From the NCBI GenBank assembly GCA_021774795.1, contig JAJFIR010000014.1:62001-126000 (forward strand): a DNA stretch of 64,000 nt, in the 5' to 3' direction. The position numbers and the translations under genes were made by a program. Below, piece by piece: positions 12,749 through 35,054 of the stretch. The stretch comes from Emcibacteraceae bacterium. Its GTDB lineage: Bacteria; Pseudomonadota; Alphaproteobacteria; Sphingomonadales; Emcibacteraceae. The notes under the pieces were generated by a model. That model was not told where the DNA came from, did not search any database, and was given only the letters and a program-made list of their open reading frames with translations. The number at the start of each line of letters is the position of its first letter. Within the stretch, counting starts at the first letter, position 1.

Positions 12749-13855
12749 TTAGAGAGTAAGGCCGCAACAATCGCCTTCAACAACGCTTTCCGGTGAAAAT
12801 GCGTCTTCAGATGCAACACGAGCGGGGTGCGCACCATATGAAGGGATAACATTACCTAAATCAATGATATCCGGTTGTCCGTCAATAATAATATGCCCGC
12901 CTTTTGCAATCAGGTCGATATGACGTTCACTATAATAATCAACGCGTTCACCCTGATTATGTTGACCAAATCCCAAATGTACGCCAGGAAAGCGTTCATT
13001 GATCTGGGAATTTTCGGATATCGGGTTTGTTATCGATAAATTTGTACCAATCCCAAGTTCACCAACGATGTTTCCATTAGTAGATTTGAAACATTCATCA
13101 ATATAGTCCATTGTGTCCTTACAGGCACAAAAATGATCCACGGCTTTTCCGCCTTTGACGGTTACTGTCACCGGATTTTTTTGTAATCTTACATCGCGGT
13201 CTATAACTGTGTTAATATTATAGGCGACATCGGCCACTAGAGTACCATTTATATTCGCAGGGAAAGTGGCTACTTCGCCTGCTGGCAAAATAATGGTACT
13301 TCCCGGACGCCACAGTCCACGGTTACTGATCCAGCTAAACTTCGAATTATCCAATTCGATATCAAGATTGGTACCGTTCGAGCACGAAATATTAATATGC
13401 TTAGCTTTCATGCATCTGTTTAAAATAGTCGCATTTCTGGCAGATATTTCTTTAGGGTCCACTAACAACGTTGTTGAGAATAATTCCGGTATTGAACTCA
13501 TAATACGGAATATTTTCGTCTTATCCGTGTCAAAATTACGAATGCATGTATTGATAATGCTTGAGTGAGAAAGTGTTTCTACTTCGAATACAAAAACAAC
13601 GAGGTTGCCCAAAACCTCATCCGGTGATGGAATAGCTTCCATCAGACGGTTAAATAACCCGTTATCCTCAAGAGGTGCCATCCAGACCGTTGATAGGTCT
13701 ACGTCTCTCATTTCCAGAGCGGAAGATACCCAAGCAGCAATGCTTTTACTTTCTTCGGTAAACACAATTACTACTTTGTCTTCTTTGCCTATTTGAGCAT
13801 ACAGATCAATTAAAGAATTAACCCCCTGCCATGCTTCAGCGGTTGGATTCAACAC
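12749..13855 (-). CDS. M29-like metalloprotein (aminopeptidase or dioxygenase fold)
   Basis: This 368-residue protein is related to the thermophilic M29 metallo-aminopeptidases, a fold also used by the iron enzyme 2,5-dihydroxypyridine dioxygenase. All five family metal ligands can be placed: E194 in PAGEVATFP, E266 in VGELGIGTN, H293 in GVHLGFG, and H312 and D314 in RHIDLIA. The N-terminal half is poorly conserved. The C-terminus carries CC. The start is uncertain: GTG at 13867 overlaps the AGAGG site, so GTG at 13855, about 11 bases after it, is preferred. It follows the 56-residue peptide gene after a hairpin and precedes the Gfo/Idh/MocA gene by 89 bases, suggesting a joint role, possibly in peptide maturation. 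Confidence 0.65.
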   Translation of the reverse strand: MLNPTAEAWQGVNSLIDLYAQIGKEDKVVIVFTEESKSIAAWVSSALEMRDVDLSTVWMAPLEDNGLFNRLMEAIPSPDEVLGNLVVFVFEVETLSHSSIINTCIRNFDTDKTKIFRIMSSIPELFSTTLLVDPKEISARNATILNRCMKAKHINISCSNGTNLDIELDNSKFSWISNRGLWRPGSTIILPAGEVATFPANINGTLVADVAYNINTVIDRDVRLQKNPVTVTVKGGKAVDHFCACKDTMDYIDECFKSTNGNIVGELGIGTNLSITNPISENSQINERFPGVHLGFGQHNQGERVDYYSERHIDLIAKGGHIIIDGQPDIIDLGNVIPSYGAHPARVASEDAFSPESVVEGDCCGLTL

Positions 13856-13883
13856 AGTTGCAGACACCTCTTTTTAGATATTT

Positions 13884-14472: not shown

Positions 14473-14997
14473 ATGAATTTGTCAAAATTAGATGTAGCCA
14501 GAAGTCAACTTCTAACAGCGATAAGACTTTATTGGGATGATGGCGATCCTGTATCGGTATACACTCTTGCTTCTAATGCTTGGGAAATAATATATGAGCT
14601 ATGTAGGGTAAAAAATATAGATAGTATATCAGACGATATTCAAAGCCATATCGGTATAGGTAAAAAATTGAAGCGTGATTACATAAACAAACCCTTTAGG
14701 AATTTTTTTAAACACGCAGATACTGATCACGACGATATATTAAATGGATTCTCAGATTCGTGTAACGATGGGATGTTGTACATGTCAGTAGAAGATTTTA
14801 TACGTTTATCTGACAAATCGCCACTCGAGTTTCAAGTCTATCAACTTTGGTATTTAAGTCGAAACCCAGATAAATTGCGAAAAGATATATTCGACGAATA
14901 TACAAAGAAGATAGAACTAGCTTTTCCTGAAATCAGAAGCCTTACACGTTCTGGTCAAAAGAAAATGGCGAAATCGGGTCTTGTTACAATATGTTGA
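14473..14997 (+). CDS. HEPN-like all-helical protein
   Basis: The 174-residue protein is predicted to be entirely helical. It carries R76-N-F-F-K-H81, which fits the Rx4-6H motif of HEPN-domain ribonucleases and toxins, within a KPFRNFFKHADTD segment, and an upstream LASNAWEIIYELC helix typical of HEPN-like proteins. If active it would be a metal-independent RNase; many HEPN proteins are toxins, but no antitoxin gene is adjacent. AGGAAAGTGAA precedes the ATG well. The gene is richer in A and T and in rare codons than its neighbours, which may indicate acquisition. It lies between the divergent control region and glmS. Confidence 0.55.
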   Translation: MNLSKLDVARSQLLTAIRLYWDDGDPVSVYTLASNAWEIIYELCRVKNIDSISDDIQSHIGIGKKLKRDYINKPFRNFFKHADTDHDDILNGFSDSCNDGMLYMSVEDFIRLSDKSPLEFQVYQLWYLSRNPDKLRKDIFDEYTKKIELAFPEIRSLTRSGQKKMAKSGLVTIC

Positions 14998-18401: not shown

Positions 18402-19100
18402 ATGTTAAAAATGAATGAAAAAATGCTTAATAAAAAACCCACCGCAGTAATATTCGATCTCGACGGAACGTTAGTAGACAGTGCCCTGGACCTTACCGCG
18501 ACACTAAACCACTTATTACGCATTAATGGACGCGAAACCATCGATAATAGTGTTGTACGCCACATGGTTGGTGAAGGTGCCAGAGCACTTATAATTAAGG
18601 GCTTTTCACACACGGGTGACCTTCCGTCCGAAGATAAACTTGATGAAATATTTGAAGAATATCTTAACTATTATCTGGCCAATGTTTCTGTGGAAACAGT
18701 TATGTTTGACGGCGTATTGAATGTATTAAATAAATTACAAGCTCAGGGCATACCTATGGCGGTTTGTACAAATAAAATTACTGAACTTACGCATGCTCTG
18801 CTTAAAAGTTTGGAAATTGACCATTTTTTCTCCGCCATCACCTGCGGCGATAGTTTTGACTATAAAAAACCCGATCCCCGCCACCTTTATTCAACGTGCG
18901 ATATGATGAATGTCGACCCTACTGGTGCCATCATGGTCGGTGATAGTGCCAGCGATGTAAATTCTGCAATTGCTGCAAACATGCCTGTAATCGGTGTTTC
19001 ATTTGGCTATACAGCTATACCAATGCGGGAACTGGGCCCAAACATCGTAATCGATCACTTTGATGAGTTTATTGAAGCTGTTAATGTTGTTCGTCGCTGA
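18402..19100 (+). CDS. gph: HAD-family phosphoglycolate phosphatase
   Basis: This haloacid-dehalogenase hydrolase of 232 residues has motif I VIFDLDGTLVDS, a helical cap, motif II VCTNK, motif III lysine in YKKPDP and motif IV MVGDSASDV. The set and length fit Gph, which removes 2-phosphoglycolate. The start may be the ATG at 18402, 18411 or 18423; none has a good ribosome binding site. It is divergent from glmU and its last 20 bases overlap the end of the convergent nucleotidyltransferase gene. Confidence 0.88.
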   Translation: MLKMNEKMLNKKPTAVIFDLDGTLVDSALDLTATLNHLLRINGRETIDNSVVRHMVGEGARALIIKGFSHTGDLPSEDKLDEIFEEYLNYYLANVSVETVMFDGVLNVLNKLQAQGIPMAVCTNKITELTHALLKSLEIDHFFSAITCGDSFDYKKPDPRHLYSTCDMMNVDPTGAIMVGDSASDVNSAIAANMPVIGVSFGYTAIPMRELGPNIVIDHFDEFIEAVNVVRR

Positions 19101-20157
19101 ACCGTCGAATAAATTTGATAGTCAAATGCTTCGCAAGTAATAATGTCGGCATTCTCAACCAATGGGACCGAACATAAAGTCCATTTTGCGCGAACCACCG
19201 ACCTAATCCTTTTGCCCCAAAACTGGGTGATATAACACCCGTCACCATATAATTCATAATATTATCAATAATAATATTTGGCGCGTAGGGTTCTATATCA
19301 ATCAATACTTGCTCCGGTATATTCGTGTCAAAAATAGCTTTTGAAAATTTAAGTGAGTAATATAATGCGCGCGTTAACCCCAGTTCCTTCGCCCTCGGTA
19401 TTAAATCATCCCAGAATTGTTGATTTTCGCCAAATTCACCATACATGTCGTGCTGCTCGAGCAGATTTCTGATGCTTCCCCGGATTTCACCATCATGAAA
19501 AAGATGAACAACACTATGAAGGATGATGTCTATATCGGAAAACACATAAAACCCACCATCTAGTTGCACCGCGCTTTCCAGCATTTTCTTAATATCTGGT
19601 TTCACTCGACTGGTGACCGGCAAGATCGTATGATGAACATCTATGCTTATGTGACGGTCCGGATGAACAAGCGGCGGTAATTCATGAGAGTATTCCCGGT
19701 AAAACTTCTGATCATAATCGTTAACAACCTGATGTTTCCATCCGGCGGCCAAAAACTTCTCTTCTGCCCAGTCAATCCGGTTTTTCGCAACTAATATATC
19801 CAGATCAACACTGGTGCGCCCTTCTGCACAGCGCAGTCCCTTCGTTATATATGCTGCACCCTTTAAAATAATCGTCTTTTCGTTACTACCATGTAGCGAT
19901 CTTTTGACCCGGTTCATTTCCCATTTTATTTTTCGGGTTGACGTTGCAGAAATATATGAAAAAGATTTAAAAAGATTTTGAACTTTTAACGGCAAATCCG
20001 CTGTAATGCCCATGTTTTCCGCATCGCTGGCAAGGCGTCCTGATACGCCGGTTAGCTTTGCTTCAATCAGGCATCTATTCCAGTCTTGCGCACTTAAACC
20101 CTTCATCACTTCGGGGTTTTTAATAACGTTCACCAAAATATTATTTCTTACTGTCAT
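19081..20157 (-). CDS. Nucleotidyltransferase family protein of the HPr-rel-A system
   Basis: The roughly 358-residue protein has a nucleotidyltransferase-like core of the NTP_transf_5 type: KTIILKGAAYI, then GRTSVDLDILV with the G-x-x-S-x-D-x-D metal motif, and H/D-rich stretches (SIDVHHTI, HSVVHLFHDGE). Family members sit beside HprK-related kinase A and a PqqD-like protein. The reaction is unknown. The ATG at 20157 is preferred because GGTGAT lies ahead; ATGs at 20166 and 20175 would overlap the kinase gene. It is last in the operon and overlaps gph tail to tail. Confidence 0.75.
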   Translation of the reverse strand: MTVRNNILVNVIKNPEVMKGLSAQDWNRCLIEAKLTGVSGRLASDAENMGITADLPLKVQNLFKSFSYISATSTRKIKWEMNRVKRSLHGSNEKTIILKGAAYITKGLRCAEGRTSVDLDILVAKNRIDWAEEKFLAAGWKHQVVNDYDQKFYREYSHELPPLVHPDRHISIDVHHTILPVTSRVKPDIKKMLESAVQLDGGFYVFSDIDIILHSVVHLFHDGEIRGSIRNLLEQHDMYGEFGENQQFWDDLIPRAKELGLTRALYYSLKFSKAIFDTNIPEQVLIDIEPYAPNIIIDNIMNYMVTGVISPSFGAKGLGRWFAQNGLYVRSHWLRMPTLLLAKHLTIKFIRRFSDEQH

Positions 20158-20158
20158 C

Positions 20159-21142
20159 TTATTCATCACCAACATTTTGGTTTACGTTATCAGCAACGAA
20201 TTTCTCAACAAGATCAACGGCGTCTTCCAGCGTCGGATATATTATTTCACAAACATGTGCATCATCGATAATTTTGGACAAAGATAAAAAAGCATCTTTG
20301 CCAACGTCCCCATAATTAGCCGATGACATCACAAGCCGGAAGAATGCCATCGTTTTTGAAATAGGTTTTATAGCTGGTTCTGCATTCGCATCATACACAG
20401 GAAGTATCACGACGTTGGGTTTGGTTCTTTTGTGCATGTCTTTGATGGAGTCTGCCGATGGCCGCATATAGCAAATAGTCCCCTTCGGGGTGCCTTGATA
20501 TTCGTCGGAAAAATAGTCCATATAATTATCATCGACTTCCCGGACCCACTTTTTCATCACCGGAATTGATTGATTCTTTAGCGATACTGCACGTGGATAA
20601 GGAACCAACTCACCTGTTCCCACGTCAAAAAGACCAAATTCATCAGAATGAAGTTGCCATCCACGATAAGAAAGTCCTGCCGCCAACGTACTTTTCCCAC
20701 TACCCGACATGGCTGGCATCACTAACCCAACTCCGTCCTTTGCAACAACGCCTGCATGGAACATAACATACTGGCGGCAAGTGTAGGCAACGTGCCAGTT
20801 AAGGCCCATCTCAAGAGAAACCATTCCCATGCTGGCAGGAAGCGGAATAAATTCATTACTCATTCCCAGCTCCACAAATGCTTGTGGTTTAATATATTGG
20901 CGGTAAAAGTTTTGCCCGTAAAGTTTAAGGTAGTTATCCCATACAACGTTATCAGCGTAAAAAGGGAAATCGCGATATATTTTTATAAATTCATCGCGAA
21001 CATTTTGAAACTTTATTGAGACATTAACGCAAAACGGGCCAATTTCAATTGCAACACCATCGCTGGACAATCTATTGTTCAACTCTATGTCATTATATGA
21101 TTGGTTAGTTTTATTGTTATAATATGGGCTTGTCACTGGCAT
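20159..21142 (-). CDS. HprK-related kinase A (HPr-rel-A system)
   Basis: The 327-residue protein resembles the kinase domain of HPr serine kinase/phosphorylase. Its P-loop reads PAMSGSGKSTLAAGL and is followed by LHSDEFGLFD, matching the HprK-like arrangement. Its N-terminal half contains the YTCRQYVMFHAGVV lead-in seen in the family. In HPr-rel-A systems this protein occurs with a PqqD-like small protein and a nucleotidyltransferase; its substrate is not established. A TTG at 21190 would lengthen it into the PqqD-like gene; the ATG at 21142 after AAGAAAA is preferred. Confidence 0.85.
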   Translation of the reverse strand: MPVTSPYYNNKTNQSYNDIELNNRLSSDGVAIEIGPFCVNVSIKFQNVRDEFIKIYRDFPFYADNVVWDNYLKLYGQNFYRQYIKPQAFVELGMSNEFIPLPASMGMVSLEMGLNWHVAYTCRQYVMFHAGVVAKDGVGLVMPAMSGSGKSTLAAGLSYRGWQLHSDEFGLFDVGTGELVPYPRAVSLKNQSIPVMKKWVREVDDNYMDYFSDEYQGTPKGTICYMRPSADSIKDMHKRTKPNVVILPVYDANAEPAIKPISKTMAFFRLVMSSANYGDVGKDAFLSLSKIIDDAHVCEIIYPTLEDAVDLVEKFVADNVNQNVGDE

Positions 21143-21176
21143 AAATAATTTTCTTTTATATGGGTTTTCTAAAAAT

Positions 21177-21494
21177 TTATACTGGTTCAATCAGGCCCAT
21201 AGTATCAAATTCATTGAGGGTTTCTACTATTTTAACTTTAAGGGGTTCATCAAGGTCTGTTTCGACAATTTTTGCGAATTCATCAAATAACTCAATCAAG
21301 GATTTGGGACCATCTTCATATAACGCAAGAAGCTCTCTGGCAAAATCATTCAAAACCTGTGTGTGGCCGCTTCGTGTGTCATAAACAATACGCGCATCTT
21401 CCCATCCCGACCATAAGAAATTGGCTGCGTCCGGAACCCCGTACACAGCCTTTTCGTCGAATATATTTTCGTTATTTTCGTTAATGTAACTCAT
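21177..21494 (-). CDS. PqqD-like peptide chaperone of the HPr-rel-A system
   Basis: This 105-residue protein has the small winged-helix pattern of PqqD-related proteins: VYDTRSGHTQVLNDFARELL followed by a helical second half (LIELFDEFAKIV, TLNEFDTMGLIEPV). PqqD and its relatives bind leader peptides of ribosomally made, modified peptides; the HPr-rel-A subgroup is named from its constant neighbours. It lies between the Tat-like signal protein and the HprK-related kinase. Its partner peptide is not known; the neighbouring exported protein is the obvious candidate. Confidence 0.8.
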   Translation of the reverse strand: MSYINENNENIFDEKAVYGVPDAANFLWSGWEDARIVYDTRSGHTQVLNDFARELLALYEDGPKSLIELFDEFAKIVETDLDEPLKVKIVETLNEFDTMGLIEPV

Positions 21495-21561
21495 CCAAAA
21501 GCGTAATTAAAATAATATAATTAAATATCAAATTTAAATACTTTTAGCAACATTCATCAGT

Positions 21562-22116
21562 TTAGTTGGGGTTTGGTTCCGGGAATTTCGGCGGCTGATT
21601 CCCTTTAGGGAATGTATCATTCTCCGCGGCGTTATGGAACAATGAATTCCCCGGCGCACATTGATCAAGATTACCAATTCCATTATTGCAATTATTTTTA
21701 AACGCTACGATAGAATTGTAACAAGACATTGCATAGCCGCCATTTGAAGGATTACTTAAGAACTTCCAATGCTCTTGACTACCATCAAACGGTATAAGTT
21801 GAGAACCTTCTTCATAGTCATCAATATCTAGTTCCCCACCAGTTGGCGGTTTTTCCAGTTTTGCCAATTGGTTACCATGCATAGGGATTTGTAGGTGTCT
21901 AGTGCGCGGGTCAGCACTATAAGCACCTTTATTCGCTATTTCTATTAACTCAAATTCACATAAGCCCGCAGAAGCGGCATGCGCCAGAGGAACCCCACCA
22001 TGAAGCGTCATAGCAACTGGCGCCGCCAAGGCACCCGTTTTCAACAGGCGACGGCGTAATTGTCTTTTGCTGTCAATCGCGTCCATCTTTTTTTCAGTAC
22101 CATTTACCTTAGTCAT
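21562..22116 (-). CDS. Secreted protein with Tat-like signal, first gene of the HPr-rel-A operon
   Basis: The 184-residue protein begins with a basic region and QLRRRLLKTGALAAPVAM, then LAHAAS, a twin-arginine-like signal with an A-x-A cleavage site near residue 45. The mature part is short, Asn-, Pro- and Gly-rich, and has four Cys (in SAGLCEFEL, AMSCYNS, NNCNNG and DQCAPG) that could form disulfides. I recognise no enzyme domain. Similar short Tat-signal proteins lie beside HPr-rel-A genes elsewhere. It could be the substrate of the system. The ATG at 22116 is preferred over an upstream GTG at 22125. A sigma-54 promoter lies 70 bases ahead. Confidence 0.7.
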   Translation of the reverse strand: MTKVNGTEKKMDAIDSKRQLRRRLLKTGALAAPVAMTLHGGVPLAHAASAGLCEFELIEIANKGAYSADPRTRHLQIPMHGNQLAKLEKPPTGGELDIDDYEEGSQLIPFDGSQEHWKFLSNPSNGGYAMSCYNSIVAFKNNCNNGIGNLDQCAPGNSLFHNAAENDTFPKGNQPPKFPEPNPN

Positions 22117-22186
22117 ACTATTCACCCATTCTACATCTAACTTATTATGTTAGATATTTACTCACAATAATCACACCCTTATATAA

Positions 22187-24898: not shown

Positions 24899-25933
24899 CT
24901 ATCCCAATGATTTTGCTATTAATGGGCCAATTAAATTTGCCACGGGCAGAGGTAATTTTCGCCAAGTTTTAATCATCATTTGGTATTTAGGATTAAGCGG
25001 ATTTACTTCCGGTATTTCATCACCGTTGTTTAAATAATACTCATACTCAAGCGGTGTAGGTTCGAACCCCCAGTTTTTTTTAAAACGATATGCACCGGTG
25101 TCGTTTTTACTACGTCCGAAGTCAAAAACTTGAACCGCTCTTTGTGAAACAGAATGTTCCATAACAGACCAGTACATAAAGTCATTTGCTGCATATGAAC
25201 GGGCCGAAGCACCGCCCCCGCCATAATACGGAATTATTTCATTTTTGAAATAAAAACTCATAACACTGGAAATTGCCTCACCGCCATCTGTACAAACCGT
25301 CAAGATTTCGCAATCGTCCTTGAATTCTTTTTTTAACGCCGCAAATAACGATTTAGGAAATACTGGCGTACCAAGGTTTCTAACACTTGTTGAGTAAAGA
25401 TGATAAAGACGATCAATTTCATTATCAATTTCATATGTCAACCCAAATTTGATGCCTTTACGAACCATCGCCCTTTGCTTACGCGGGATCGCCAACATGT
25501 TTTCTTCATTGTCTGTGCTTAACTGCTTTCTGAAGGTCGAATATGTCTCGTTCTTTATCGGCCAGTCATTGTGGCTTCTATTTATCTGACGATATTCAAG
25601 AGTCGCCACCCCAAGTTTATTTGCAAGATCAATAGCTTGTCCATCCAGCAAATTCAGGGCTTCTTCATCATCAAATAGCGGACCACCCCCAATGGAGAAA
25701 GCGACAGAAACCAAGGCATTACCAAATAGTCTGCTTCTAATGTGAATAAGCGGTAGAACAGCACATATTGCGTCATCTTTTGTTGCATATAAATAATAAA
25801 AATCGTGCCCCATACTTTGACACACGCTTCGCCCCCAACCGGACATTTGGTATATATTACCTCGTTCATGATTGAGAACATAATCGTCCCAATCCGCGCA
25901 ATCTTCAAATATATTCAGATGTTTAATTTCCAT
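24899..25933 (-). CDS. FemAB-like acyl(aminoacyl)transferase, XrtA-associated
   Basis: This 344-residue GNAT-fold protein belongs to the FemAB-related family found with exosortase/PEP-CTERM loci (TIGR03019). It shows NIYQMSGWGRSV near the start, a central LGTPVFPKSLF, and the family end FDFGRSKNDTGAYRFKKNWGFEPTPLEYEY. FemAB relatives add amino acids to cell-wall or lipid acceptors; the XrtA-associated role is unproven. It is the last gene of the XrtA block, four bases after the deacetylase. Confidence 0.88.
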   Translation of the reverse strand: MEIKHLNIFEDCADWDDYVLNHERGNIYQMSGWGRSVCQSMGHDFYYLYATKDDAICAVLPLIHIRSRLFGNALVSVAFSIGGGPLFDDEEALNLLDGQAIDLANKLGVATLEYRQINRSHNDWPIKNETYSTFRKQLSTDNEENMLAIPRKQRAMVRKGIKFGLTYEIDNEIDRLYHLYSTSVRNLGTPVFPKSLFAALKKEFKDDCEILTVCTDGGEAISSVMSFYFKNEIIPYYGGGGASARSYAANDFMYWSVMEHSVSQRAVQVFDFGRSKNDTGAYRFKKNWGFEPTPLEYEYYLNNGDEIPEVNPLNPKYQMMIKTWRKLPLPVANLIGPLIAKSLG

Positions 25934-25936
25934 AAT

Positions 25937-26809
25937 TTAATCATTTACCCCAAGAAAAACATCGTCCATGCGTCCCCAGGAAAAATCATTCAATAAATTT
26001 TCTATTTTTTTTTCCATAACATCCAAGTTAGTATAGTGCCTAAAACGTGACTTCAAACTGGCATTAGCTTGCCTTGGTTGTTCAGGATCAATTTCCCAAG
26101 GATGAAAGTAAAAAATACAGGCTTTCTTATCTTTTATATTCACTCTATTCATGGCCATTTTTGATAATTTATAGGGCAGCAAGCGAAAATATCCGCCGCC
26201 ACCGCAAGGAAACTTTTTATTCATAAATTCAAATGTCGTAACCGGCATTTCCAGAAAATCGCTCCCGGCAACTGGATGAAATGCAAAGCGTGGTGCCGAA
26301 GGCATCCCATAATGATCGTGCCTAATTGGATATATGCTTGAGCTATATATATATCCCGCTTCTTTTAGGCATTCCAATGCCCAAATATTTCGCTCCCCAA
26401 TAGAAAAGCTAGGCGCTCTATATCCGATTACAGCCGCCCCTATCGTATCTTCAAGCATTCTTTTTGACTTGGTGATATCTTCTACAAATTGATCCCGAGT
26501 TAAATCCGTAACGCGGTGATGGCTGATGCTATGGCTAGCCACTTCGTGGCCTTGCTTGTGAATTAGCCTTATTAACGCCGGGTAGCGTTCACACACCCAT
26601 CCTAAAGTAAAAAAGGTGCCTTTTACGTTATTTCGTTCAAATAATTCTAATGTTCTCCGGGTATTACGCTCCACGCGGCAAGGTAAATGGTCCCAATCAT
26701 CCCGTGATATATTATTTTCGAAAGCGCCCACATGAAAATAATCTTCAACGTCAACTGTCAATGCGTTAATTATCGGTACTTCTTTTGTCTGCTGCTCTGA
26801 TGAGGTCAT
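25937..26809 (-). CDS. XrtA-system polysaccharide deacetylase
   Basis: This NodB-homology carbohydrate esterase of 290 residues begins with LTVDVEDYFHVGAF, carrying the catalytic Asp and metal Asp, and has HEVASHSISHHRV with the two metal His, then GYRAPSFSIG and FYFHPWEID near the end. The family (TIGR03006) occurs with exosortase A loci and removes N-acetyl groups from a polysaccharide. It sits between the ATPase and FemAB-like genes with short gaps on both sides. Confidence 0.92.
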   Translation of the reverse strand: MTSSEQQTKEVPIINALTVDVEDYFHVGAFENNISRDDWDHLPCRVERNTRRTLELFERNNVKGTFFTLGWVCERYPALIRLIHKQGHEVASHSISHHRVTDLTRDQFVEDITKSKRMLEDTIGAAVIGYRAPSFSIGERNIWALECLKEAGYIYSSSIYPIRHDHYGMPSAPRFAFHPVAGSDFLEMPVTTFEFMNKKFPCGGGGYFRLLPYKLSKMAMNRVNIKDKKACIFYFHPWEIDPEQPRQANASLKSRFRHYTNLDVMEKKIENLLNDFSWGRMDDVFLGVND

Positions 26810-26826
26810 GAGGCTAATATCCTATT

Positions 26827-27873
26827 TTAACCTTCGAGCCAGTCTTCAACAATATCGATTGTGCCTTTAATGGTCCTGTCATGAACTTTTATATTTTTTT
26901 CAAGTCTTACAACACGTTTTCTAAGCTTGAGTAAATCGGCCGCCATCCTTAATTCAGCTTGTTTTGCCATTTCCAGATCTTCCTGAGAAATTGAGTGGTT
27001 GCCATTGGCTGCTACTGTCTCTAAATTTTGAGCCAACCGGGCGCTCGCTGATGCGGCGTAATTATCCTGTTCCATATCTTCGAGAACTTCTTTAACGACT
27101 TCGCCGTTAATTTCTTCTAATTCTTCGATTGCACCGAATAATAAAAGTCTCGTGCATAAGGTATTCAATTTGCGCGGCACACCAGCCGAATATTTAAATA
27201 TTTCTGCCAAACTATTTTCAGAGAAATTTGGGTTTCCTTTCCAATCGACAAGGGTCAATCTGTGTTCTATATATTCACGTGTTTCCTCAATCGTCATCGG
27301 TGATAAATGATGGGTCGCGATTACCCTTTGGCGTAATTGTTCCAATGCAGGGTCATTGGCCCATTTATCTCTAAATTCAGGTTGTCCTACGAGAAAGCTC
27401 TGTAATAGTGCTTTGTTGCCTTCCTGAAAGTTGGACAGCATCCGCAGTTCTTCTAAAGCTTGTGTCGTTAAATTCTGAGCCTCATCTATTAGCAGTAACG
27501 TACTCTTGCCCGCCCTATTATTACCGCGTAAAAATTGTTCAATTTTTGTGATGATAATGGCTTTATCACCGGTTTCAATATTAATCCCAAATGAAGCAGC
27601 AACCATTTTCAAAATATTATCTGCATCGAGTTGCGATGTAACAATTTTAGCAGTAACAAATTCATTTGGATCCAAACTTTGCAGCAACCGTCCAACCAAG
27701 GTCGTTTTGCCGGACCCAATTTCACCGGTGATGATAATAAACCCCTCTCCCTGACTAATACCATACGACAAATATGCCATTGCTTTATGATGGGTGCTGC
27801 TATCAAAGTAAAAGTTTGGATCGGGGGTAAGCTGAAAAGGTTTCCCAGATAGGTTATAAAATTCCGAGTACAT
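26827..27873 (-). CDS. XrtA-associated ExeA-like AAA ATPase
   Basis: This 348-residue P-loop ATPase resembles ExeA and GspA. Walker A is ITGEIGSGKTTLVG, Walker B LLLIDEAQNL, with RMLSNFQ and a sensor-like RQRVIATHHL. The start EFYNLSGKPFQLTPDP is typical. The last 70 residues are predicted coiled coil (AELRMAADLLKLRKRV). The family (TIGR03015) accompanies XrtA exopolysaccharide loci; its role in assembly is unknown. It is eight bases after the outer-membrane protein gene. Confidence 0.92.
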   Translation of the reverse strand: MYSEFYNLSGKPFQLTPDPNFYFDSSTHHKAMAYLSYGISQGEGFIIITGEIGSGKTTLVGRLLQSLDPNEFVTAKIVTSQLDADNILKMVAASFGINIETGDKAIIITKIEQFLRGNNRAGKSTLLLIDEAQNLTTQALEELRMLSNFQEGNKALLQSFLVGQPEFRDKWANDPALEQLRQRVIATHHLSPMTIEETREYIEHRLTLVDWKGNPNFSENSLAEIFKYSAGVPRKLNTLCTRLLLFGAIEELEEINGEVVKEVLEDMEQDNYAASASARLAQNLETVAANGNHSISQEDLEMAKQAELRMAADLLKLRKRVVRLEKNIKVHDRTIKGTIDIVEDWLEG

Positions 27874-27881
27874 ATTTTATC

Positions 27882-29306
27882 CTAGAAGGTTGCTCCAATG
27901 GCAACTCTAACAAGGTTTGATTTGCGCGGTATAAAGTTAAAAATCTGCTGTTTACGATCTGAATATATATATTCGATCGTGCCTACCAGATTTTCTGAAA
28001 TATTATAAGTAATACCACCTGAGTAGCTCAAAAATATATCTGATTGAGGGTCAACAACGAATTTGTCATCTACCAGAAATGCAGCTATATTCACATTTAA
28101 CCTAGGACTCATGGCGCGGTTCCATATTGCGCCGACCGTATACCTTTTAAAGTCCCCAAGGACGATAGAAGAGTCAGATCGAAGTATAGTTCCAATTAAG
28201 GTAAGTGTTGACCGCCCTCTGGTGCCCACTAAATTCAATTCCCATTGTTTCTGGCGGGTAAAATCTTGACTGACCGCATCCTGCGGAAAATCTGCTGCAT
28301 TACCACCTCCAGCAAGGAAAGCCTGCAATGCAAATGATTGGAATGTTGCAAGGTTATCCCGATAAGACACTGTAACATTCATATTGGGTGTAATGATATA
28401 TTGGCCGTCAACTGTCCAAGCATTACCAAAAAAAGTTTTACCGTAGCGCACAGTAAGATTTGTTCTTGGTCCAGGTGTTAATCTCGTACCAACATCCCAG
28501 ATAAAGCCAGAAAACCGTGCCGGACCAAATTCAGCCTCTCGGTCCGTATAACCCGCAGAAGCCAATAATGCGATCTTGCGGTGCAATTGGTAATCACCAA
28601 ATAGTTGAGTAGTTAATGTTGTATTATTATCACCTACTATCGATTCTTGTGTATAGATGTTTTGCCAAGACCAGGTCGTCCGCGTAAATCTAGTGCCGTT
28701 AGTGAAAATTACTGATCCTTCATGAAATACTGAGGCTGCACCGGCCCCAAGATCTGTACCATCCACTGCGATATTTCGTGAAACGTCCACATAACTCAAA
28801 CGATACCGCGTTGTCATAACGGCGAAATTCCCCCCAACCTTATTAACTGTAAATGGCGAGATTGAACCAATAGTAACCGTACCACGGTTATCACTTACAC
28901 CAATATCAAGCGTCGAAAACGTGTCTCTTCTGTCAATAAATTGTTGTGTAACACCGGCATCTGCCTCAATAAAGAAGAAATCACGAACAATTTCGGAATC
29001 CATACCAGCGAGTAGCGAATGGCGAAACTCGTCCTTATCACCTTCTAGGCTGGGATAATAAAAATGGTTAAGATCATAATTTATGTTGGCGTTAAAGCGT
29101 GCACCTGTTGCGACCGCTGTGCCTCCGATAGTGGTTTGTGTCACAAAATCACTTTGTGCAAAGGCCGCATCTAAATCCACGTCATCAGTATATATTTCCG
29201 CAACTTCAATAGATGGCGTAATCACCCAATCCGCCTTGGCGGATATAACCAACCCCATTGTACCAATCATAGATAAAATTACAGCTGTTCCGACCTTATT
29301 TTTCAT
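27882..29306 (-). CDS. XrtA-associated outer-membrane beta-barrel protein
   Basis: The 474-residue protein starts with a signal peptide (MKNKVGTAVILSMIGTMG to about SAKA) and then alternating beta strands ending in a terminal RVAIGATF, as for an outer-membrane barrel. It fits the TIGR03016 family of PEP-CTERM/XrtA loci. It may help export the polysaccharide through the outer membrane. The ATG at 29306 follows AGGACAAT; an upstream ATG at 29330 has no site. It lies between the tyrosine kinase and ATPase genes. Confidence 0.88.
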   Translation of the reverse strand: MKNKVGTAVILSMIGTMGLVISAKADWVITPSIEVAEIYTDDVDLDAAFAQSDFVTQTTIGGTAVATGARFNANINYDLNHFYYPSLEGDKDEFRHSLLAGMDSEIVRDFFFIEADAGVTQQFIDRRDTFSTLDIGVSDNRGTVTIGSISPFTVNKVGGNFAVMTTRYRLSYVDVSRNIAVDGTDLGAGAASVFHEGSVIFTNGTRFTRTTWSWQNIYTQESIVGDNNTTLTTQLFGDYQLHRKIALLASAGYTDREAEFGPARFSGFIWDVGTRLTPGPRTNLTVRYGKTFFGNAWTVDGQYIITPNMNVTVSYRDNLATFQSFALQAFLAGGGNAADFPQDAVSQDFTRQKQWELNLVGTRGRSTLTLIGTILRSDSSIVLGDFKRYTVGAIWNRAMSPRLNVNIAAFLVDDKFVVDPQSDIFLSYSGGITYNISENLVGTIEYIYSDRKQQIFNFIPRKSNLVRVAIGATF

Positions 29307-29341
29307 TTTTTTATTGTCCTGACAGTTCATAACAAAAGCGT

Positions 29342-30283
29342 CTATTGATTATAACCATACCCGTAATATGATCCAAACCGCTTGTTCCCCGTATGAATAT
29401 GTGCCTTATTCAATACCATATTTATGTTCTTACAGTTTTTAATCAATTGCAAAGCTTCTTTAATTTCTTCCTCCGAAGTTCTATCTGCTTCGACAACAAA
29501 CAAAACCTGCCCAACATGCATCGCAAGTACAGAGGACGCACTGCTGGCCAGAGCTGGCGGGCTATCAATAACAATTACTCTGTCATGATAGCGCTGTGCG
29601 AGCTCATCAATAATATTTCCCATTTTCTCGCTTGCCAAAAGTTCAGTGGTAAACGAATGTTTTTTACCTGCCGGCAAAACGCTTAAGTTCTTAATATCTG
29701 TTTTAAGGATACATTCGCTTAAATCTACACCGTCGTCACCAATAACATCAATAAGGCCTTTACCGCCCTTGATGCCCATAGTTTGCATGATATCAGGTTT
29801 TGATACATCAGCATCAACGAGCAGAACATTTAAATCTTTTTCCTTTGACATGCTCAATGCTAAACTAAGGGCGCAATATGTTTTGCCCTCATCCGGTTGT
29901 GAACTGGTAACCATGATGATATTACCATTTTCAATGGCGTTTTCACCGCTCGTAAATGCGTTAATTAAGAGACTTCTTTTAATAAGACGAAACTCTTCGG
30001 CTACGAGCACATTATCATTATTTAGAGTTAAGATATTTTTTTCATTGAGCCTGTCTTCATCAATCTTAACGCTATTTTGAGCTTCAATTAAACCTTTTCT
30101 ACCTGGCTCTTCATTTCTTTCAGAACTGTTATAGTTGACGGGTTTAACGAGTTCACCGTTCGGCGCTTTTGTTTGTGAAGTAATTTCCGGTGCTTGTGAT
30201 TTTGCCGCTAACTTTCTAGCAGCCCTTTCAACAAGGCTTTCCTTACTCTTCTTCTTATCCACATTTTTTTCGTTTACGTTCAT
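29342..30283 (-). CDS. XrtA-associated tyrosine autokinase
   Basis: This CpsD/CapB-type bacterial tyrosine kinase of 313 residues has Walker A SQPDEGKTYCALSL, Walker A' VLLVDADVSKPDI and VIVIDSPPAL, with a C-terminal tyrosine cluster (GSYYGYGY) as the autophosphorylation tail. It would work with the adjacent chain-length protein to set polymer length. A low-complexity N-terminus of about 90 residues precedes the kinase. The family is TIGR03018 of XrtA loci. Confidence 0.93.
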   Translation of the reverse strand: MNVNEKNVDKKKSKESLVERAARKLAAKSQAPEITSQTKAPNGELVKPVNYNSSERNEEPGRKGLIEAQNSVKIDEDRLNEKNILTLNNDNVLVAEEFRLIKRSLLINAFTSGENAIENGNIIMVTSSQPDEGKTYCALSLALSMSKEKDLNVLLVDADVSKPDIMQTMGIKGGKGLIDVIGDDGVDLSECILKTDIKNLSVLPAGKKHSFTTELLASEKMGNIIDELAQRYHDRVIVIDSPPALASSASSVLAMHVGQVLFVVEADRTSEEEIKEALQLIKNCKNINMVLNKAHIHTGNKRFGSYYGYGYNQ

Positions 30284-30301
30284 ATTAAATCTTCTATCTA
30301 A

Positions 30302-31879
30302 TTAAATTACGCTACTATTCATTTGTTCTAAAACTACATAAACAAATATACCAGCTACAAACAAACCGCCAAACATAACGGACGAAGCAATTAGACTGCG
30401 TCTTCTTATGGACTCATCTTGTTTAGATAAGATGGCAGATACACTCCCGAGCACGGGTAGATTAAATACGTCCCGTAATCTTTGTTCAGATGAAAAGGTG
30501 CTGTGAAACTGGTTCAAGACAAACGCAGCACCACTACCAGCGACGATACCTGCCGCCATACTGGCTAGCACAAGCAACAATCTATTTGGAGATGCCGGTG
30601 ACGCTGGTACTTGAGCCGGTTCAATTAGGCTATAAATGATCCCGGCTGACGAATTTTCCAAAATCTGTGACATTTTGGTATCTTCTCTCTTACCCAGCAA
30701 GCTATTATAATTTTCCAGCAGAATTTCGTAGTCGCGGTTAAGTCTTGCTTCTTCCGCCTCTACTTCTGGTACACGCTGTGATAAACTTAAAAGTCTGTTT
30801 ACCGCAGCTTCTCTTTGAAGCTTTCTGGCTTCCAATTTTGCAATTTCACCCTCAACATCGATTAATTTGATACTCAACTGATCAAAAAGTGGATTTGGTC
30901 TCAATCCATTCATAGAAGATAGAGCTGAGGTATCACCATCTGTCATAGCACGTGCTAAATTTTCTTTTTCAGTAACAAGCTGATCCCGCAGGGATTTTAT
31001 CTGTTCTTGCAAAATAACAATATCCGGATGCTGTTCTTTATATCCGCGTACATAAAGAGCGTCCAATTGAGTAACCATTGATGCTATCCTTGTTTCAATG
31101 GTAACACGCTGTGCTCCGCTGATTGGACCCACGCCAAAAGATGAAACAAAAGGAGGTAATTGCTCACGGTAATCCAGAATCTGCTGCTTTTGGTTTAGCA
31201 ATTCACCCATTTGCAAATCAACCGCTGCGGCTTCTTGCCTTGCCGTGTTTAAATTTTGAAAGTAAGTCTGGCCTGTTGAGGATAAGAAGCCCATATTTGC
31301 CTGGATAAATTCCGACCTTTTACGCTCCGCTTCTTCAAGATTAGCTTCATGTTCCGTAATTTGTTCTTCAAGAAAAACCAATGCGCTGGATAATTCGCCG
31401 GAACTATCTACAAGTTGCCCACCCATGAATGCATCCAAAAATCCCTGAACTACGCCATGTGCTAAAACCGGATCTCTACTTTCATATGACATACTAAACA
31501 GTGTCGTCGATTCTGGTTCAATTTTAAACCGGCCCGAGATTTGTCCAATCAACCTGTTTAATTCTTCTTCAGAACCAACCAGATCCTTAATTCCGGTGCC
31601 TCGGACAACTTTTTCAACATTATCCCGTCCCAACAGAGTTTCCCGCATCGCTAAAATCTGGTTGTAAATATTGTTATTTACAGTCAAATCAGACATCAAT
31701 GGAGTAAGCACCTTATCAGTATCAAAATGAAGTCTGGCCTTCGATTCATATTGATTGGGAATTTGCGATATGTATAACCATCCTGTTACCGACACACCCC
31801 ATGCAACCAAAAGAGCAATCTTTCTATTGCGCCAAATGCCGTATAAGATTGATACAAACTGAGTATAAATTTCATTCAT
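30302..31879 (-). CDS. XrtA-system polysaccharide chain-length determinant (Wzz-like)
   Basis: The 525-residue inner-membrane polymerase co-regulator has an N-terminal transmembrane segment (about residues 20-34), a long periplasmic coiled-coil region (residues about 160-390), a second transmembrane segment (about 434-456) after a Pro-rich PASPASPNR, and a third near residues 500-520. It matches the family TIGR03007. It is co-transcribed with the tyrosine kinase, to which it would present its cytoplasmic ends. Confidence 0.93.
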   Translation of the reverse strand: MNEIYTQFVSILYGIWRNRKIALLVAWGVSVTGWLYISQIPNQYESKARLHFDTDKVLTPLMSDLTVNNNIYNQILAMRETLLGRDNVEKVVRGTGIKDLVGSEEELNRLIGQISGRFKIEPESTTLFSMSYESRDPVLAHGVVQGFLDAFMGGQLVDSSGELSSALVFLEEQITEHEANLEEAERKRSEFIQANMGFLSSTGQTYFQNLNTARQEAAAVDLQMGELLNQKQQILDYREQLPPFVSSFGVGPISGAQRVTIETRIASMVTQLDALYVRGYKEQHPDIVILQEQIKSLRDQLVTEKENLARAMTDGDTSALSSMNGLRPNPLFDQLSIKLIDVEGEIAKLEARKLQREAAVNRLLSLSQRVPEVEAEEARLNRDYEILLENYNSLLGKREDTKMSQILENSSAGIIYSLIEPAQVPASPASPNRLLLVLASMAAGIVAGSGAAFVLNQFHSTFSSEQRLRDVFNLPVLGSVSAILSKQDESIRRRSLIASSVMFGGLFVAGIFVYVVLEQMNSSVI

Positions 31880-32039
31880 CTCATTTTACTTCCAAAAAAA
31901 TTATTATCTTCACCAAATCAAACCTTAGGACGCTTTACATAATTTCATAGCACTGTATCTAAGACATAACTCGTTACTACTTTGCCCTGGACCCTAATAA
32001 CAATCCATCCGATCCAGAGCGAATTACATTACTTAAAGC

Positions 32040-32699
32040 TTAAAAGAAGCTTTCTGGAATAATGATCACGTCACCAGGTTGAATTTCCACATTTGCAGTA
32101 ACATCACCGTCTTTTAACAGATCATCCAACCGAATTGTATATTCACTCTGACTTCCATTTTCTACACGCGCCAGAGTTGAACTATTCCCTGCGGCAAATT
32201 CAGTCGTACCGCCAACGGCGATCATCACATCCAGCAACGTCATATTTGATCTATATGGAATTGCGGCCGGTGCTGTTGCAGAGCCAACAACCCTAACCTG
32301 TTGAGCAAACGGTCCCTGGAAGCCATTTACAATAACTGTTACAATTGGCCTTTGAATATATTGATCAAGTTGCTCTTCAATATCACGAGCCAACTGAGTA
32401 GGTGTTTTTCCCGTTGCGGCAATATCATCAATCAGCGGCACAGAGAAACGACCATCTGGGCGAACTGTTACCGGCGATGAAAGTTCCGGGTGTGTCCAGA
32501 CAAATATCTGTAGTAAATCAAGTGGCCCAACAATATACTGTGGTCCGGGACCTTCATCACTTGAAACGAACTGTGCAGAAGGAAGTTGTCCTTTACCTCC
32601 CATTCCTCCACAGCCTGCTATGAATAGCAGACAAAACAATGAACTTACTTTAGCAATATTCATTGCTGGCTTATTTAGATTTCTTAAAAGGCTTGGCAC
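32040..32699 (-). CDS. XrtA-associated polysaccharide export lipoprotein (OMA, Wza-like)
   Basis: This is a 219-residue outer-membrane auxiliary lipoprotein. A lipobox LFIAGC places the acylated Cys at residue 30. The poly-export domain (YIVGPLDLLQIFVWTHPELSS to about residue 130) is followed by one SLBB domain ending GDVIIIPESFF. It would form the export channel for the XrtA polysaccharide. The GTG start at 32699 follows AAGGGA at good spacing; an ATG at 32663 lacks one. It is first in the minus-strand XrtA run. Confidence 0.93.
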   Translation of the reverse strand: MPSLLRNLNKPAMNIAKVSSLFCLLFIAGCGGMGGKGQLPSAQFVSSDEGPGPQYIVGPLDLLQIFVWTHPELSSPVTVRPDGRFSVPLIDDIAATGKTPTQLARDIEEQLDQYIQRPIVTVIVNGFQGPFAQQVRVVGSATAPAAIPYRSNMTLLDVMIAVGGTTEFAAGNSSTLARVENGSQSEYTIRLDDLLKDGDVTANVEIQPGDVIIIPESFF

Positions 32700-34508: not shown

Positions 34509-35054
34509 ATGAGCAAAAGCATAAGCAAACTTTTATTACTTAGTTGTGCATTACTATTATATTCGGCTCAAAGCGGAATGACAGATAGAAATGTGCGTAG
34601 TCCTAGTGCGGACAGCACAATAACCGCCGGGCCATATTATAATGCATCAACAAAAAGTTATTTTGAACTATTTAGCTTTCCTGAGTTATCTTGGCCAGAA
34701 GCAGAGCTGGAAGCTAAAAATCATGTTTTTAAAAACACAACAGGCCGTCTCGCTACAATAGACAGTTATAAAACACATAAATTTCTGGTTAACAATTTTA
34801 CATTTTCTCAAGACACATGGATTGGGCTACAGTTTTTTTGCAAAAGTTCTGAAGCTATATGGCTTAACGGTACAACGCCCATATCCAATCATTTTGAAAA
34901 TTGGGATCCTAATATATCCACATCAAACAATCTTTGTGTAATAGAGGAATATTTGCCAATTTTCATAAGAAATAATTCCTTTGTCTGGGAAGTTTCTTCA
35001 CCAAGAAAAACATCAAATTTTTATTTAGTTGAATATCAAACAGGAACAAAATAA
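34509..35054 (+). CDS. Secreted C-type-lectin-fold protein
   Basis: The 181-residue protein begins with a signal peptide (LLLLSCALLLYSAQS) and then matches the C-type lectin fold: SYFELFSF, WPEAELEAKNHV, GRLATIDSYKTHKF, WIGL (104-107), NHFENWDP, and closing FYLVEYQ. Only two cysteines (C111, C143) lie in the mature domain, so the usual disulfide pair pattern is reduced. Ca2+-dependent sugar-binding residues (EPN or QPD) are absent. It likely binds a surface partner, perhaps polysaccharide or protein, but this is inferred from the fold and its location. Confidence 0.6.
   Translation: MSKSISKLLLLSCALLLYSAQSGMTDRNVRSPSADSTITAGPYYNASTKSYFELFSFPELSWPEAELEAKNHVFKNTTGRLATIDSYKTHKFLVNNFTFSQDTWIGLQFFCKSSEAIWLNGTTPISNHFENWDPNISTSNNLCVIEEYLPIFIRNNSFVWEVSSPRKTSNFYLVEYQTGTK

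Follow-up and report, generated by a model that had tools for sequence, protein, structure and literature searches.

The system described here is a set of four genes at positions 19081-22116 on the minus strand of the window, that is, the whole stretch of 64,000 nucleotides analyzed from contig JAJFIR010000014.1 of an Emcibacteraceae bacterium. In the list of open reading frames (ORFs) the genes follow one another in the order Tat-type protein (named after the twin-arginine translocation pathway, Tat), PqqD-family protein, HprK-related kinase, and nucleotidyltransferase-fold protein. The kinase and the PqqD-family protein are of the HPr-rel-A type. Our results support the view that the HPr-rel-A enzymes have the Tat-type protein as their dedicated partner and, likely, their substrate, and we consider it fairly probable that together the four genes constitute a cassette for the leader-guided modification of a single exported protein.

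The set was found as the first-pass annotation had described it, with all of its genes present on the minus strand and, for the kinase, the PqqD protein, and the transferase, with family scores above the cut-offs. The kinase (20159-21190, 343 aa from a TTG start) matched the model of HprK-related kinase A, TIGR04352, with 250.4 bits (cut-off 200) over its full length (profile positions 2-279 of 280). The PqqD-family peptide chaperone (PqqD_rel_X; 21177-21494), the proposed leader binder, matched TIGR04353 with 47.4 bits (cut-off 35; profile positions 1-74 of 74), and its score against the Pfam PqqD model was 16.8 bits, under the cut-off of 23.4. The NTP_transf_5 nucleotidyltransferase-fold protein (19081-20175, 364 aa) scored 147.5 bits against PF14907 (cut-off 31.2). 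The kinase ORF overlaps that of the transferase and, if the TTG start is correct, that of the PqqD protein too. The Tat-type exported protein, the proposed substrate, is encoded at 21562-22116 (184 aa from an ATG, with an alternative GTG start possible at 22125) and was recognized as an ORF whose relatives adjoin the same genes. While the kinase and the PqqD protein score above the cut-offs of the NCBIfam HPr-rel-A models themselves, the Tat-type partners have no convincing family match: no Pfam or NCBIfam model matched the window protein at E 0.1, nothing convincing was found for it and ten relatives in Pfam or for it and nine of these ten in NCBIfam, and diverse relatives gave only sporadic weak matches to the libraries. 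Promoter- and terminator-like sites around the cassette were about as frequent as in shuffled sequence.

The association of the Tat-type protein with the enzymes was evident from its distribution. Of 40 relatives, 28 have the kinase (E <= 1e-15), and 20 of these 28 genomes also gave the Tat-type protein (E <= 0.01), whereas none of the 12 kinase-free genomes did. In 19 of these 20 genomes it adjoins the kinase on the same contig, and in G391 the two are on separate contigs. Profiles were then built from 80 named loci spanning alpha-, beta-, and gammaproteobacteria, and they detected the protein in 73 of them. The seven misses comprise four loci at contig ends (L069, L116, L118, and L121), one with a divergent copy recognizable by eye (L137), and two real ones (L075 and L141). 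With the same profiles, the protein was detected in 29 of 30 (miss L004) and in 25 of 30 loci of two further sets; among the misses of the latter (L148, L149, L164, L165, and L171), L149 holds a copy by eye. In 33 further loci that had not been used for the profiles, 27 had the protein, one of the others being cut off at the contig end (L196), and a search by eye of the remaining five (L190, L197, L200, L203, and L214) revealed none. Since some of the sets share genomes, these counts are not additive.

A profile of the leader (alignment A5) gave a similar picture, with matches in 31 of 36 cassette genomes (all except G725, G436, G456, G707, and G732), the best match lying at the cassette and being the single one in 27 of them. 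At least nine of the 36 genomes gave rows to this profile, and setting them aside leaves 22 of 27. Additional matches away from the cassette were weak (E 7e-5 or worse), and one of 14 cassette-free genomes gave a match, at E 4.8e-4 on a 437-aa frame. One dedicated leader-bearing protein per cassette genome is thus mostly the rule. In alpha-, beta-, and gammaproteobacterial loci alike, the evidence from linkage is consistent with that from presence/absence, and both support the earlier proposal of the Tat-type protein as the likely substrate. The set is found in numerous Proteobacteria. In a sample of the phylum, the kinase scored above the cut-off in 61 of 398 genomes; no relative of it was found in a search of viral contigs, and a plasmid search for the Tat-type protein retrieved none.

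This distribution also bears on the idea that the kinase is a regulator acting on HPr or another cytoplasmic protein, the Tat-type protein being simply a co-regulated neighbor. The kinase shares a P-loop and a catalytic region with HPr kinase/phosphorylases, and its P-loop region aligns with the solved HPr kinases 1ko7, 1jb1, and 2qmh (E 6e-4 to 9e-4), although the best of these matches span only 41 residues. It differs from them in its operon and proposed substrate, and it is accompanied by a PqqD protein and by a protein bearing a leader, for which a regulator of HPr would have no need. The genome (G000) also has a separate short HprK-like frame at 23322-23555 of contig C37 (25.7 bits, in a 139-aa frame with one internal stop), probably its ordinary HPr kinase. 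We regard the regulator as a very unlikely explanation.

Some loci showed other arrangements of the genes. Two Tat-type partners stand in tandem before a single enzyme set in G410 (L049, 1-423 and 795-1370), and in a Thiobacillus metagenome-assembled genome (L115, 4557-10008) two tandem kinase-transferase sets have a Tat-type protein between them. The partner is opposite in orientation to the kinase in L136 (10153-10755), where it is downstream of the enzymes, and in L162 (737-1240), where a PqqD match is found beside it.

The predicted leader of the window protein (residues 1-47; 21976-22116, minus strand) looks like a Tat-type signal, and export by Tat is predicted, as it contains a twin-arginine motif (RRRLLK), a short hydrophobic stretch with Pro33, and, by inspection, an AHA signal peptidase cleavage site. 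The genome also encodes TatC (227.8 bits). Twin Arg occurred in all of 128 detected leaders, a count in which some genes appear twice and which was obtained with a profile that itself favors this pair, and in 27 of 27 further ones. Leader residues invariant across the 20 sequences of the window-family alignment (A2) are R18, R21, R22, L25, K26, G28, A29, T37, L38, and G41. Identity was higher in leaders than in mature parts (0.41 vs. 0.24 over 400 random pairs, the leader being higher in 383), and the hydrophobic part of the leader, without the twin Arg, showed an identity of 0.38 vs. 0.23 for shuffled leaders. The recognition motif of the lasso and pyrroloquinoline quinone (PQQ) systems, [Y/W]xxPx[L/V/I/A/F/Y], was considered for these leaders and rejected, being present in only two of 78; a Pro-x-hydrophobic stretch occurred in 59 of the 78, which alone says little.

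The resemblance to a Tat signal would also suit a proof-reading role, in which the PqqD protein and the kinase hold or mark the Tat precursor until it is folded and leave no lasting modification on it. Tat substrates often have dedicated chaperones. Proof-reading leaves unexplained, however, both a transferase with invariant catalytic residues and the conserved Ser motifs of the mature protein, and we consider it highly improbable.

Conserved features of the Tat-type proteins are a Cys just past the leader, an adjacent Ser, and a second Cys/Ser motif. In A2, the invariant mature residues are Ser49, Cys53, Pro78, His116, Trp117, Cys132, and Ser135, and two candidate acceptors are found among them: Ser49 (21970-21972), beside the leader end and four residues ahead of Cys53, and Ser135 of the motif Cys132-x-x-Ser135 (21712-21723), within SCYNSI. 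When 78 non-redundant partners were compared, two classes could be distinguished. Class I comprises the window protein, other alphaproteobacterial proteins, and several lineages with SCWxSF ends, and carries, toward its C-terminal end, the motif [STN]CxxS[FILVYM], with the Ser followed by a median of 6.5 residues. In class II, whose members are mostly beta- and gammaproteobacterial, the mature N-terminus bears C-x(1-4)-S-xxx-S. Motif I was present in 38 proteins and motif II in 34, with none having both and six neither (L109, L006, L003, L101, L005, and L172, kept within the 78), so that 72 of 78 had one. In shuffled copies of the 78, either motif was found in 4.3 proteins on average and in at most 14, and the class I motif alone in 1.2 on average and in at most 5. 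A Ser no more than five residues before the first Cys was observed in 38 of 38 class I proteins (about 0.37 expected by composition) and in two of 34 of class II. The patterns were fixed before the 33 further loci were examined, and in these, 23 of 27 partners had a motif (one having both), the shuffled maximum being 5. Four Cys, pointed out in the first-pass annotation, are indeed present in the window protein together with RRRLLK. They are not general, since the 38 class I substrates have four Cys in 21 cases, two in 16, and three in one, and the number was dropped as a diagnostic mark. On a tree of the kinase (77 rows), the motif classes require two changes without the rows having neither motif and eight with all three labels, a pattern that fits a kinase recognizing the site.

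In 31 aligned class II mature parts (A3, mean identity 21%), the sole invariant residues are Ser8 and Ser12. To be chosen, a row had to contain GYW-type strings or an SGN close to its start (32 qualified, and the partly masked L091 was excluded). As SGN is found in 25 of the 31, the second invariant Ser is in part a product of this selection; the six rows without SGN have both Ser too. The structure of one class II mature part (L097, 7163-7681; model me06c6a3d89da), recognizable by CxGxTPGYWK ... HxVAALLNA, was predicted as a confident fold, with a predicted local distance difference test (pLDDT) score of 85.8 and a predicted template modeling (pTM) score of 0.84, Ser8 and Ser12 being within the lower-confidence first 20 residues. 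Against the PDB, the model had no match at E <= 0.001, and of the 181 chains compared with it, none reached Z >= 2; by sequence, nothing convincing was retrieved among solved structures (best E 0.43) or in Pfam. The class II domain may possibly have an undescribed fold, although missing structure matches are no proof of a new one. The prediction for the window substrate was too poor for use (mean pLDDT 63.6, pTM 0.46; best Foldseek match E 3.4).

These data argue against another explanation, namely that the exported protein is trimmed to a small peptide-derived product, as for PQQ and mycofactocin, and that the kinase and the transferase tailor this product. Peptide natural products typically come with a PqqD-family protein and with a leader that is conserved ahead of a variable remainder, and the precursors of linear polyphosphorylated peptides (LPP; 2026) are reported in the accessible text as 35-200 aa long (PMC13381572). 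The four-gene cassette, however, has no peptidase or cyclase, the class II mature part is modeled as a confident fold, and the conserved residues of class I extend to the C-terminal part. We therefore consider a small product unlikely.

Judging from their sequences, both the kinase and the transferase look active. His145, Lys166, Asp183, and Glu184 of the kinase are invariant in 171 of 171 aligned rows (the window contributes two of these rows, and some genomes more than one) and provide the catalytic His, the P-loop Lys, and the acidic pair, in which Glu184 replaces the second Asp. They match residues whose role was tested in BsfK (H148, G163, K169, S170, D186, and D187, as given in the available text), with Glu for the last Asp. 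In the transferase, Lys105-Gly106, Asp124, Asp126, and Asp179 are invariant in 122 of 122 rows, an Asp-x-Asp with a third Asp. One query each retrieved no relative of the transferase or of the PqqD protein among solved structures by sequence. The invariant Asp residues would also be in agreement with a transferase that acts first or alone and places a nucleotide directly onto the substrate, the kinase using pyrophosphate or removing the group, as a switch instead of a build-up. In the HPr system, HprK enzymes act as phosphorylases as well, which counts for this possibility. The chemistry of related enzyme sets points the other way, and we judge a transferase acting first quite unlikely: in the biosynthesis of pseudomycoidin, the only case with transferase activity among the sources considered, PsmN is needed for a hexose on an already phosphorylated Ser (PMC9266682), and LppN of the LPP system was inactive (PMC13381572), as far as the accessible parts of these papers indicate.

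An open-access full-text search recognized no paper describing the TIGR04352/TIGR04353 HPr-rel-A cassette. The view of the first-pass annotation that such sets have no known chemistry agrees with this result as regards TIGR04352 itself and does not extend to related sets, the chemistry of which has been published. According to the available text of three papers, the HprK-like kinases of these sets target one precursor Ser, sometimes several times (PMC9266682, PMC10368454, PMC13381572). PadeK, ThcoK, and SyanK phosphorylate a C-terminal Ser, as is the case for paeninodin (PMC9266682), BsfK phosphorylates Ser3 of the core, faster with the RRE protein BsfB1 added (PMC10368454), and LppK phosphorylates Ser3 of the LppA core (PMC13381572).

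Among known systems, LPP and phosphorylated lasso peptides come closest to the cassette. The LPP clusters of Bacillota (LppA/LppK/LppB/LppN), located in capsular polysaccharide loci (PMC13381572), are similar to the cassette in several respects, so far as they are described there. Both have a discrete RRE protein, an HprK-like kinase, and an NTP transferase beside a precursor with a conserved N-terminus and a variable remainder, both are set in or next to polysaccharide genes (here the XrtA exopolysaccharide genes at 24899-32699), and the LPP kinase phosphorylates a Ser near the leader end. They differ in that LPP has a dedicated SpI peptidase and an MsbA-like transporter, of which the four-gene cassette has neither; none was present among the 27 window ORFs scanned, some of them against one library only (Pfam or NCBIfam). 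An ABC-exporter-like protein was recognized by eye in 12 of the 80 loci, at varying distance and orientation. The LPP leader motif is YxxPxVL, in contrast to the Tat-like leader of the cassette, and here the hosts are Proteobacteria and the substrate is able to be a folded domain. The words twin-arginine, Proteobacteria, Pseudomonadota, and exosortase are absent from the main text of the LPP paper (PMC13381572).

Phosphorylated lasso peptides (paeninodin, pseudomycoidin, and Bsf), in the published parts considered, resemble the cassette in their HprK-like kinase with His, Lys, and Asp-Asp, in the RRE protein B1, in the phosphorylation of Ser, and, for Psm and Bsf, in also having a nucleotidyltransferase. 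They differ in making a short lasso peptide with a leader peptidase and a macrolactam cyclase, and in the acidic pair of the kinase, which here is Asp-Glu, not Asp-Asp. Neither a leader peptidase B2 nor a lasso cyclase was found in the cassette or among the 27 window ORFs scanned. The LPP and lasso precursors, as presented in these sources, are not Tat-exported folded proteins. By its membership features the cassette is neither an LPP nor a lasso system, and by analogy it probably works like one.

The preferred reading, a leader-guided modification of the Tat-type protein, can be outlined in four steps. The PqqD-family protein would bind the N-terminal leader, which would double as the Tat signal, and would then present the precursor to the HprK-related kinase. 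The kinase would place at least one phosphate onto a conserved mature Ser, which in the window protein could be Ser49, next to where the leader ends, or the Ser135 of Cys-x-x-Ser. The catalytic residues and the published analogs make phosphoryl transfer to Ser reasonable as the chemistry, and phosphorylation of Ser by the kinase seems likely. In the third and weakest step, the nucleotidyltransferase-fold enzyme might add a nucleotidyl or sugar group; that it acts on phospho-Ser is put forward only tentatively. Finally, Tat would export the folded, modified protein, the modification probably preceding export, and the Cys residues would form disulfides outside. The HPr-rel-A enzyme set, known from family models, gains a concrete partner open to testing. 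Should the modification prove real, folded Tat-exported proteins would come under the scheme known from peptide natural products, with its leader, carrier, and tailoring kinase.

Several observations weigh against this scheme. A Tat-type partner was not detectable in L075, L141, L004, L148, L164, L165, and L171, nor in six loci (one of them cut off at the contig end) of the further set of 33, and the PqqD gene went undetected in four of the 27 further loci that have the partner. As the known leader motif is so rare here, that motif gives no argument for binding by the PqqD protein. The Ser motifs are placed differently in the two classes, so that no one Ser stands out as the acceptor. A high Ser content is common in mature N-termini, which weakens the finding of a Ser near the first Cys in every class I protein. 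The two final patterns, preceded by counts of twelve candidate motifs, were drawn up from the same 78 proteins; the check on unseen non-redundant partners from the further loci was a small one, with a motif in 9 of 13 (shuffled maximum 4), or in 10 of 14 when L219 (G385) is included, which was not unseen because a fragment of it was already in A2. Common descent alone could give the class pattern observed on the kinase tree. In the test host for LPP, deletion of LppN was without effect, according to the available text (PMC13381572), and our search of the open-access literature found no report of a modification for this family.

The genomic setting, absent from the earlier account, offers a possible context for the cassette. 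Seven consecutive genes for XrtA/PEP-CTERM-associated exopolysaccharide are on the minus strand at 24899-32699, less than 3 kb from the first cassette gene and outside the cassette, all of them scoring above the cut-offs of their NCBIfam models (TIGR03019, TIGR03006, TIGR03015, TIGR03016, TIGR03018, TIGR03007, and TIGR03027). The XrtA match of the genome itself is on another contig (C39) and scored 181.8 bits, under the cut-off of 208. In a sample of the class, the kinase scored above the cut-off in 11 of 385 genomes, and an XrtA match (E <= 1e-15) was present in 10 of these 11 (the exception being G264) vs. 45 of the 385 overall (Fisher p 2e-9); by the cut-off of XrtA itself, the numbers were 8 of 11 vs. 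29 of 385. In the phylum sample, 31 of 61 kinase genomes vs. 72 of 398 had XrtA at E <= 1e-15 (p 1e-10), and 24 of 61 vs. 34 of 398 had it above the cut-off (p 1e-14). Kinase and XrtA were within 60 kb on one contig in 7 of the 31 (G411, G687, G665, G732, G433, G662, and G436). That the cassette requires XrtA was considered and rejected, only 31 of the 61 having a match; because half of the positive genomes in the phylum have none and the p-values ignore relatedness, the result is an association and not a requirement. The neighboring XrtA genes suggest a role in surface polysaccharide or biofilm.

As regards the wider picture, we see about an even chance that this is a widespread proteobacterial system in which the Tat signal is the PqqD recognition leader, in which the kinase and the nucleotidyltransferase decorate a folded protein before export, and in which two substrate classes have the Cys/Ser site at opposite ends, possibly in the service of XrtA-type exopolysaccharide. 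If true, a phosphate-based protein modification would be linked with XrtA-type surface-polysaccharide loci.

Other genes of the window can be mentioned briefly. Next after the cassette is a gene for a PhoR-like histidine kinase (best scores under the cut-offs), and an ORF resembling a response regulator by eye is found between it and the exopolysaccharide genes. Two ORFs elsewhere in the window had no library match, one of 174 aa at 14473-14997 in Pfam or NCBIfam and one of 372 aa at 12749-13867 in Pfam. Adjoining the exopolysaccharide block, a gene at 34509-35054 encodes a protein of 181 aa that has a C-type lectin domain (PF00059) and is flanked by a UDP-GlcNAc epimerase gene and a DUF218 gene.

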